A DNA stretch of 64,000 nucleotides. Source: Halobacillus massiliensis (GTDB lineage Bacteria; Bacillota; Bacilli; Bacillales; Halobacillaceae). Where the stretch lies: the NCBI RefSeq assembly GCF_900166625.1, contig NZ_LT800499.1, positions 1,344,630 through 1,408,629 of the forward strand. The letters run 5' to 3'. Below, in pieces: positions 16,099-17,694 of this stretch (its first letter is position 1; the number at the start of each line of letters is the position of its first letter). A program made the translations under genes and the position numbers. The notes beneath the pieces were generated by a model that searched no databases, had not been told where the DNA came from, and saw only the letters and a program-made list of their open reading frames with translations.

Positions 16099-16239
16099 TT
16101 ATCCCATCCCTGGATCACCGGGATCTGCTAATGCAATTTCAGTTACTCCCGGAGTGTCTATAGTCTGTCCTTCTGGATAAACTTGAAATCCCCACATTAT
16201 GAACACAGTTAATAATACGGCAGCAAATAACTTTCTCAT
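16099..16239 (-). CDS. Small secreted signalling pre-peptide (Phr/AimP-like)
   Basis: A 46-residue frame with a good ribosome site (AGAGGAG). The product has the layout of an exported quorum-sensing precursor: basic start MRKLF, a hydrophobic core AAVLLTVFIMWGF, a spacer, then EIALADPGDPGMG at the C-terminus. The ALA before DPGDPGMG resembles the cleavage point that frees Phr and AimP peptides. It follows, on the same strand, a receptor-like TPR gene, the usual receptor-peptide order. A terminator and about 400 bases separate them, so it probably has its own promoter. Mature form and function are inference. Confidence 0.7.
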   Translation of the reverse strand: MRKLFAAVLLTVFIMWGFQVYPEGQTIDTPGVTEIALADPGDPGMG

Positions 16240-16637
16240 TATAATTCTCCTCTTATATTATTTTGAGACGCTTCAGGCAGGAATTAAGCAGCTGGATAAA
16301 TAATATCTGCACACGCTGATAAAAAAATGCCGAGTGCGGGGATAATTTCTAGCGCATTTTTCAAGATCGAAATAATCCACTGGAAACACGCCAAATTTTG
16401 TAAAGAAGAATGTTATTATTTCTGGCAAAACTAATGGAGAAAGGATGGAGATAAAATGTTGTCTGTCTACTTGAGGAAAGATAAGCTGAATCTTACTTAT
16501 ATTTTCTTTGTCAGAATCGTTTAATAACAAGGTGCCGTTAATTTATTTAGAAATCTTACTTCCATATAATGTAACCATTATACCTTGTTAAAACTATACT
16601 AGTAAACGGTTTCAGGGGAAATTTGAAATATACTAAA
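16240..16637 (-). other. 400-base gap between the AimR-like gene and the peptide gene
   Basis: AT-rich stretch without a convincing gene. A TTG-started frame of 85 codons exists on the minus strand (16530-16273) but has no ribosome site and no recognisable content. The peptide gene's promoter must lie here, and I could not assign it with confidence. The region is the likely target for peptide-dependent regulation or antitermination. Confidence 0.5.
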
Positions 16638-16670
16638 AAACAAAACGCCAGCAATTTTAGCGTTTTGTTT
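16638..16670 (-). terminator. Terminator directly after the AimR-like gene
   Basis: Eleven-base perfect stem AAACAAAACGC / GCGTTTTGTTT around an 11-base loop. In the minus direction it is followed by a T-run. It overlaps the receptor stop codon, separating receptor and peptide transcription. Confidence 0.82.
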
Positions 16671-17694
16671 AGAGATTAATATATTTTCTAAGATAAATTA
16701 ACGGGAGTTTAGCAAAAAAATGATCTCCCAGCTGGTATTTAAAACGCCGGTACGCATTTAATAATCGTTGGGGGTCGTCCGAGGCTGCACCTAAGTAGGT
16801 TTCCTGGAAGGGGGAAGGGTTATTTATTTCCTTTAAAATTTTGAAAGCTGTTTTGTAATCTCTGTCAGCTAAAGCCAGGTGAGCAGATTCCGTCGCATCT
16901 GTTGTATTTATGCCTTCTATTTTTCCGTGAAAGGCACTGATAAAGGGGATCGTGTTATTTTCAAGGGTGGAGATAGATGTAGTTATTTGAGCTTCATTTG
17001 CTACTTTAAGGGCCATTTGGGCATGGCTTATGGAAGCAGCATAACCTTCATATAAATTACATAATGCCAGATGATGATACATCTTGCTTAGCTGTCGTCC
17101 TGGAAGAACTTTATTAATATATTTATAAGCGTATTTTTGAGCGAGGAGTTTGTTATCTGTTTTCCAGTAATGATGAAAGGCCACTTCTTCAAAACGAAGC
17201 TTCATAAAATAATAGAAAAGAGGTTCATTTATTTTATTTAAAGCTGCTTCACAAGATTCAATATACTTATCAAACCCTGTGTACTGTTTTATGTCATAAT
17301 ATCCGTAAATCATTGTGTAAATATGAAGACAGTGAAGAGAAGGATGTTTGAAAGACATACTTTCCAGCATCTCTAGATCATTCTTTTTCAGTAGATTTAT
17401 CTTTCGCTTCATCAGAAGCTTATACAGCCAGACGGCTTTTGGCTCAAAGTAAGGGGAGTCCAACAGCTCATTAAGTTCTTCTAAGTAATCATTTGTATAC
17501 AGGAATTCTAAAAAAGCAAGCTGATCTTCAAAATTTTTAGGAGAGTGTGTCAGACAGTAGTGACGTGTAAGTTGTGCAGCTTTTTCGTTAGAAAAATTTT
17601 TTAAAGCCTGATGGTAATACGTATAGACAGTTGATACCTGATACATCTGAATCTTAGTAATGGGACTTGGCTCAATGACGTTATAGCATCCCAT
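16669..17694 (-). CDS. AimR-like tetratricopeptide receptor lacking the N-terminal HTH
   Basis: A 341-residue helical-repeat protein of the arbitrium-receptor (AimR) type. From memory, LTRHYCLTHSPKNFEDQLAF with YLEELNELLDS lines up with the region after the DNA-binding domain of phage AimR (LMKDYCLN...), and GDHFFAKLPLIYL matches its conserved C-terminal GDKFLIRLP motif. The N-terminal ~45 residues holding the HTH are missing, and a stop codon lies two codons before the ATG. No phage genes flank it. AimR-like proteins outside phages (the Alo systems) are known in Paenibacillus. It may act on a partner protein, like Rap, rather than on DNA. Confidence 0.72.
   Translation of the reverse strand: MGCYNVIEPSPITKIQMYQVSTVYTYYHQALKNFSNEKAAQLTRHYCLTHSPKNFEDQLAFLEFLYTNDYLEELNELLDSPYFEPKAVWLYKLLMKRKINLLKKNDLEMLESMSFKHPSLHCLHIYTMIYGYYDIKQYTGFDKYIESCEAALNKINEPLFYYFMKLRFEEVAFHHYWKTDNKLLAQKYAYKYINKVLPGRQLSKMYHHLALCNLYEGYAASISHAQMALKVANEAQITTSISTLENNTIPFISAFHGKIEGINTTDATESAHLALADRDYKTAFKILKEINNPSPFQETYLGAASDDPQRLLNAYRRFKYQLGDHFFAKLPLIYLRKYINL

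Follow-up and report, generated by a model that had tools for sequence, protein, structure and literature searches.

The closest described relatives of the locus analyzed here are RRNPPA receptors, for which the main text of PMC12700828 treats the HTH as ancestral. In the AimR-AimP systems of SPbeta-type and Bacillus cereus-group phages, a helical-repeat receptor is followed by a secreted propeptide with a short C-terminal pheromone, and a DPG motif is described as widespread in AimR peptides (PMC12700828, main text). Phages rely on this signal in deciding between lysis and lysogeny; the peptide blocks activation of aimX and thereby favors lysogeny. AimR is placed in clan C, as is AloR-AloP of the Paenibacillaceae, a host chromosomal system in which the receptor is again followed by the propeptide and in which, by the description in PMC7425212, all receptors are HTH bearing. 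Subfamily 21 (Alkalihalobacilli) is likewise chromosomal and branches within AimR in the sequence tree of PMC12700828. The Rap-Phr systems of Bacillus consist of an HTH-less receptor of the nine-TPR type, whose output is protein-protein contact, and an exported peptide that relieves this contact. The text of PMC9765709 names Rap as the only RRNPPA members without an HTH, and that of PMC12700828 adds subfamily 17 (Anoxybacter fermentans) beside Rap in clan B as HTH-less, naming both as founded by HTH loss.

The window, a stretch of 64,000 nucleotides from Halobacillus massiliensis, encodes a receptor-propeptide pair that shares some properties with each of these systems. Its features are as follows.

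16669..17694 (-), HTH-less AimR-type receptor gene, 341 aa; ATG at 17694, stop at 16671-16669
17647..17694 (-), N-terminal tail replacing the HTH, codons 1-16; pLDDT under 50 (disordered in the model)
16723..16725 (-), codon of D324, aligned with D360 of SPbeta AimR; D in 52 of 52 family receptors
16638..16670 (-), terminator-like stem-loop of 13 pairs with a T tail, at the end of the receptor gene
16577..16606 (-), promoter-like TTTACT-18-TATAAT (10 of 12), between the terminator and the peptide gene
16099..16239 (-), propeptide gene, 46 aa; signal-peptide-like leader MRKLFAAVLLTVFIMWGF...; AGGAG ribosome site
16102..16125 (-), predicted pheromone DPGDPGMG, last eight propeptide codons; mature ends as suggested by conservation

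With AimR-AimP the pair shares the homologous receptor, the downstream secreted propeptide, the short C-terminal pheromone, the DPG motif, and the residues corresponding to E300, D360, and F276 of SPbeta AimR. It differs in that the receptor has no HTH and lies on the host chromosome in fixed synteny rather than on a phage, in the eight-residue motif, in the changed positions N202 and N206, and in that no aimX-like gene was seen in a conserved place. With Rap-Phr it shares the HTH-less receptor of the nine-TPR type and the exported peptide, and Rap came next after AimR in fold. However, no match to RapH_N, the three-helix N-terminal bundle by which Rap binds or dephosphorylates response regulators, was found by Pfam in 31 members; the receptor instead starts with 16 disordered residues, and both its sequence and its fold group with AimR. 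Subfamily 17 is set apart by its description in PMC12700828, being in clan B with Rap and NprR whereas AimR is in clan C, and AloR-AloP is set apart by its HTHs. Subfamily 21, compared here by its main-text description in PMC12700828, could overlap with the wider clade reported below. Homology places the system within the AimR branch of RRNPPA. We nevertheless do not file it as arbitrium because two defining features, the HTH and the mobile element, are absent; on the input side it would work like arbitrium, and on the output side perhaps like Rap. The literature search, with supplements and subscription papers outside its scope, returned no description of such a system and nothing combining AimR and Halobacillus.

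Receptor core, absent HTH, and predicted groove

The preliminary description had recognized an HTH-less AimR-type receptor by eye. In profile searches, the window receptor matched Pfam AimR (PF22871) with an E value of 9.1e-40 (residues 41-337 onto profile positions 3-309 of 309), NCBIfam NF038310 with an E value of 1.7e-29 and a score of 103 bits (cut-off, 70; residues 32-335 aligned to positions 46-365 of 365), and PHROG 1728 with an E value of 8.4e-26; the nearest solved structure by sequence profile was 9f36 (7.6e-6). Since the NF038310 alignment begins at profile position 46, the first 45 positions, which are the HTH part, are unmatched. Homology in the helical-repeat core extended to the whole set of 31 scanned family members, all of which were matched by both the Pfam and the NCBIfam models, the latter at 1e-5 or better in all 31. 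Being above the NCBIfam cut-off, at least the window protein would receive the name lysis-lysogeny pheromone receptor, in our view a misnomer.

A search with the window protein gave matches in all 11 genomes of the window's genus and in 40 of the 44 genomes of the family, and the Pfam AimR model gave the identical 40; neither query matched in the four small genomes of genus g5. One genome, G011, has a sole AimR that is HTH bearing and 23% identical, so that the HTH-less kind is present in 39 of 44 genomes. The receptor set comprised 52 complete HTH-less receptors from these 39 genomes, a broken extra copy in G013 being left out. Five HTH-bearing AimRs served to build an HTH profile, which was run on 159 of 160 N termini (that of L109 was too short) and separated them sharply: 48 matched at 6.4e-9 or better, and the remainder gave 0.11 or worse or no match. 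None of the 52 complete family N termini matched, nor was an HTH found when their full open frames from the previous stop were searched (best E value, 0.53).

In the window itself, a TGA sits in frame two codons ahead of the receptor ATG, as had been described, and reading the three upstream frames by eye revealed no HTH-like frame; from the start to a common aligned tyrosine there are 45 residues, versus 63 in phi3T AimR. Throughout the family, start codons were chosen nearest to the aligned start, and the common start position is thus partly by choice; a conserved I/L-E/K/Q-P motif follows these starts at a distance of about five to seven codons. In 47 of the 52 receptors, the open frame ended within 66 nt upstream of the chosen start, and the longer frames of the other five contained no HTH. 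A sequencing error upstream, which the preliminary description had named as a possible cause of the missing HTH, and decay are both ruled out by its absence from 52 of 52 receptors together with the short upstream frames in 47.

Structure prediction with AlphaFold2 from the window protein and four Halobacillus relatives (five sequences) gave five models, the best with a mean pLDDT of 85 and a pTM of 0.76 and the other four with pLDDTs of 63 to 74. In the best model, residues 1 to 16 were disordered and the chain was helical throughout from residue 22. The top 16 matches in a Foldseek search of the PDB were all AimR (E values of 5.5e-7 to 6.2e-5; TM by query length, 0.62 to 0.69), and the next two were Rap entries (5e-3 and 6.5e-3). 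The predicted fold is that of AimR, not one unlike AimR and Rap, as the preliminary description had expected.

Peptide groove residues described in the text of PMC6458997, among them the peptide anchors N202, R228, T236, E300, and D360 of SPbeta AimR, were mapped via the SPbeta-type receptor of phage Goe11, on the assumption that it is collinear with SPbeta AimR; the Goe11 letter equaled that of the paper at 18 of 28 looked-up positions. The columns of SPbeta F276, E300, and D360 contained F, E, and D, respectively, in 52 of 52 family receptors, the E300 column being less sure as phi3T itself has L there. D360, which forms a salt bridge to the peptide (PMC6458997), corresponds to D324 of the window receptor. 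The Y159 column contained Y in 50 of 52. N202 is a residue required for peptide binding in SPbeta AimR (PMC6458997); in 51 of 52 receptors its column was occupied by Q, H, Y, or N, with H in the window receptor and N in five. The N206 and V198 columns contained K and E, respectively, in 52 of 52, the L205 column W in 50 of 52, and the R228 column R in 32 of 52; T236 was not kept. The changes at N202, N206, T236, and R228 imply that the peptide contact must differ in detail from that of SPbeta. Judging from the alignment, the groove appears to have kept some anchors while its lining was altered family-wide, as would be expected for a different peptide.

A receptor without an HTH might still control DNA indirectly, by pairing with an HTH-bearing regulator (e.g., AimR or an NprR-like protein) or through a cryptic DNA-binding surface of its own. 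The described relatives of the branch, AimR and, in the account of PMC7425212, all Alo receptors, do carry an HTH, and RapH_N matches were found in 30 of 44 family genomes within open frames of 427 to 493 aa. The length of these frames suggests that they are NprR-like, and they were not counted as Rap proteins. Nevertheless, across the 44 genomes the Pfam AimR model found an HTH-bearing AimR in G011 only, a genome that is without the HTH-less kind; 0 of 52 family N termini gave an HTH match, and the first 16 receptor residues are disordered in the model. We consider indirect control of DNA unlikely and favor contact with a partner protein.

The DPG propeptide and its conservation

The small same-strand frame noted about 430 bases downstream of the receptor was confirmed as a 46-aa propeptide gene, with 429 nt between the receptor stop and its start, an AGGAG site, and the terminal DPGDPGMG. 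Its conservation beside homologous receptors was assessed in two ways. The first used no motif: ORFs of 24 to 90 codons with a ribosome site and a basic hydrophobic leader were collected if they started from -10 to +100 nt relative to the receptor stop. This gave 31 ORFs in 30 loci, 29 of which contained DPG (27) or DPI (2); the two others were an overlapping frame in L066 and the copy in G006. The second, a filter for DP(G/I)(D/E/N/T)xGx(G/W) on the receptor's strand within 1.6 kb 3' of the receptor, was positive at 37 of 49 family loci, with none counted elsewhere in the search, and gave no adjacent motif at 12 of 49; it covered frames of up to 140 residues, excluded same-strand copies at 1.6 to 3 kb, and missed a DPGDPEMG copy in L040. 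Because the filter prescribes the residues at positions 1, 2, and 6 and restricts the choice at positions 3, 4, and 8, conservation there is partly built in. Among the 56 filtered copies, position 4 (D/E/N/T allowed) was D in 53, free position 5 was P in 30, G in 17, L in 5, and S in 4, and free position 7 was M in 27, I in 20, Y in 6, and V in 3. By both measures the small frame is kept with the receptor, as the preliminary description had anticipated.

When all 44 genomes were scanned with a DNA pattern for DPGDxG(M/I)G, 50 sites were found, spread over 30 genomes. Receptor loci accounted for 44 of these sites, the reversed pattern gave none in the 44 genomes, and no site fell in the four genomes without any AimR match. 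Of the 39 genomes that encode an HTH-less receptor, 38 have the motif when the locus filter and the genome-wide pattern are combined. The exception, G018, has no recognizable motif, and six Halobacillus loci have the variant DP(G/I)DGGYW. Two to four pheromone copies per precursor were observed at many loci, and multicopy precursors are known from other RRNPPA propeptides (texts of PMC9765709 and PMC11343458).

The propeptide starts 0 to 30 nt behind the receptor stop in most loci and 58 to 76 nt behind it in three. The distance is larger in G003 and G007 (about 250 nt), the window (429 nt), and G016 (about 1.4 kb). In G016 (L188, 1993-2299), the insert between the receptor and peptide genes, which are adjacent in G017, contains a fragment resembling a zinc-ribbon transposase by eye. 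The order in G010 (L040) is receptor-receptor-peptide in tandem. A search of the 429-nt gap of the window for a second-receptor remnant gave nothing above noise (best match, 17 residues with an E value of 0.008 on the opposite strand). The gap also holds an 85-codon TTG-start frame (16530-16273, minus strand) with no Pfam match, which is probably due to chance. As to the terminator that had been placed between the two genes, a stem-loop is indeed present at 16670-16638 (-), but the terminator scan found 1 versus 1.0 expected by shuffling, so that its position alone favors it; the promoter scan likewise gave 8 sites overall versus 10.0 expected. With a terminator-like site between them, the receptor and peptide genes of the window would not form one plain operon.

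The six motif sites away from receptor loci were located in five stretches. G034 has a stand-alone secreted precursor with two copies, and the one receptor of this genome is without an adjacent peptide. In G033, the receptor is missing from the usual Halobacillus site (OsmC-like gene, YdjM-domain gene, peptide, and BCCT transporter), where the DPGDSGIG peptide gene has been kept; the only receptor of this genome above the cut-off sits elsewhere without a peptide. These two cases suggest that receptors without an adjacent peptide respond to the same peptide. Near position 4000 of L185, L186, and L187 (G004, G005, and G006) are short ORFs of about 28 to 39 codons ending in DPGDPGMG; with no clear signal peptide and far from the receptor, they are possible second, leaderless pheromone genes. 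In G006, which has one of these remote ORFs, the propeptide leader and the DPGDPGMG repeats directly behind the receptor (L047) are in different frames, and this copy looks broken.

The chromosomal receptor could alternatively be an anti-phage decoy or eavesdropper, sequestering arbitrium peptides of the DPG type or forming pairs with phage AimR that block the latter. HTH-bearing relatives also use DPG peptides, the G011 precursor ending in DPGRGGGGG; the motif occurs in AimR peptides by the text of PMC12700828; and chromosomal nonprophage AimR systems, mostly without a detected propeptide, are proposed to be eavesdroppers in the text of PMC9765709. The receptors of this family, in contrast, have their own peptide encoded at most loci, often in two to four copies per precursor, the motif accompanies them in 38 of 39 receptor-bearing genomes, and their synteny is fixed. 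We hold a decoy function to be very unlikely and read the peptide as the receptor's own signal.

Chromosomal setting and the wider clade

The absence of surrounding phage genes reported earlier was borne out, none being found among the scanned window neighbors: a PTS permease, two zinc dehydrogenases, a YflT-domain gene, a long catalase, and a FUSC protein. The proposal of a host module beside general stress genes held only in its first part. The pair is conserved across the family, but the link to stress genes exists at some loci only, with a catalase-cluster gene in 11 of 49 family loci and a YflT gene in 4 of 49, and a general tie was rejected; at the Halobacillus and g6 loci displayed, the fixed neighbors are different genes. 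The sequence ahead of the YflT gene, judged by eye against the consensus, is a putative SigB promoter. The loci fall into fixed synteny classes, namely one Halobacillus site, a second site, the site of the window's genus near the catalase gene, and a g6 site. The second site comprises nine loci (eight Halobacillus and one g4), whose receptors are without an adjacent peptide. A tie to sporulation was also considered: Spo0A was found in 41 of 44 family genomes, and the three without it are also without the receptor, but this co-occurrence is uninformative because Spo0A is present in 391 of the 397 genomes of the order.

Relatives of the receptor were sought by tblastn in 50,697 phage records and 72,556 plasmid records, and none were found in either; none were found in viral contigs with the family alignment and a scan by two short patterns. 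The order-wide alignment gave one viral match of 43 residues, whose frame was stopped after three codons, and which is thus no intact receptor. Two members from other families gave no match to phages. One of these two matched three plasmid records at 23 to 26% identity, two of them annotated as AimR; the records are the Bacillaceae plasmids CP045534.1, NZ_CP085707.1, and NZ_CP124832.1, which encode AimR-type proteins and two of which are of about 41 kb.

Across the order, the Pfam AimR model matched 86 of 397 genomes, and 90 stretches, some overlapping, were taken from other families (part of the order matches), yielding 103 receptors. A tree of 160 receptor cores was built, unrooted and by a quick search without bootstrap, with a long-branch warning among the HTH rows. 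The 52 family receptors formed one clade (SH-aLRT 100) within a clade of 101 (SH-aLRT 100; stem, 0.74), none of which had an HTH match, by the profile alone in the order part, where some N termini are about 50 to 60 residues long. The clade of 101 includes 49 receptors from three other families (f2, f13, and f36), and the phage reference receptors phi3T, Goe11, 268TH002, and SpaA1 fall outside it. Also outside are four smaller groups or single rows without an HTH match (11 rows). L149, L152, L157, L159, and L164, with 60 to 86 residues ahead of the core, may contain a divergent HTH. A DP-type secreted ORF was assigned to 13 of the 49 other-family rows and not to 36, by a strict filter and with some of the stretches short. 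Because the text of PMC12700828 treats the HTH as ancestral, we read the unrooted tree as loss of the HTH rather than its gain.

Other arrangements were observed among the order loci. In genus g41, L124 and L125 each have four tandem receptors without an HTH match. In L114 and L117, a single HTH-less receptor precedes two propeptide genes that differ from each other: several DPVEPPxx-type repeats are found in one, and the other ends in DPDTGGMG or DPDIGGMG. L146 (G048) has seven HTH-bearing AimR-type receptors in tandem, and L148 (G158) has five. A second group without an HTH match (L090, L103-L105, and L108) lies nearer to phi3T-type AimR in the tree, and in L104, L105, and L108 a small secreted ORF with NPSTSPRI, DPSGSPRI, or DPNGSPRI is found downstream.

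Phage AimR families match the window receptor, and the locus might on that account be taken for a degenerate prophage remnant, with an AimR whose HTH was lost by decay and a small ORF downstream by chance. Such a history is at odds with the identical architecture of 52 complete receptors in 39 genomes, the 37 invariant columns among 31 aligned family receptors, the single clade of 101 without an HTH match, the conserved peptide, and the absence of phage genes among the scanned window neighbors. We find it scarcely credible for the window, and for the family as a whole it is already refuted.

Proposed mode of action

We propose that the system would be a host-encoded, vertically inherited form of peptide communication. 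By analogy with AimR and Rap, the precursor would be exported by Sec, cut outside the cell to DPGDPGMG or a close form, reimported via the oligopeptide permease (Opp), and seated in the concave groove of the AimR-type helical-repeat receptor. The window's own genome encodes five SBP_bac_5 proteins, candidate oligopeptide-binding proteins, making peptide import possible. Because the receptor has no HTH, peptide binding would switch no DNA-binding domain, and the output should be contact with another molecule. Like the preliminary description, we infer that the receptor binds protein or RNA rather than DNA, and most likely the peptide would alter how the receptor engages a partner protein, much as with Rap, the protein target being suggested by the same analogy.

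The likeliest surface for such contact would be the conserved N-terminal tail and the neighboring first helix. Residues of the tail are kept in the family receptors (P9 in 52 of 52, E8 and I7 each in 47 of 52), and the invariant S21, Y24, and L31 adjoin it. From the model and the alignment, the disordered yet conserved residues 1 to 16 together with these three would be the best candidate contact surface.

That the pair constitutes a working signal and its receptor is, in our judgment, very probable. We think it quite likely that the full reading holds, in which the AimR-type receptor of a host pheromone system targets a partner protein in the manner of Rap. On balance, we also favor a separate HTH-less branch of RRNPPA that is AimR related and host owned, with its own DP-type pheromones and partner-protein signaling, in the window's family and three others. 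Such a branch apart from Rap would be the first that we know of in the AimR-AloR clan.

An HTH-less AimR clade on host chromosomes with conserved peptides would represent a separate origin of the HTH-less design, in another clan, and would supply a host-side relative of phage arbitrium. It would also offer a ready set of peptides and matching receptors with which to study how a single fold is redirected from DNA toward proteins as its targets. If this is true, proteins automatically named lysis-lysogeny pheromone receptor need not be of phage origin.
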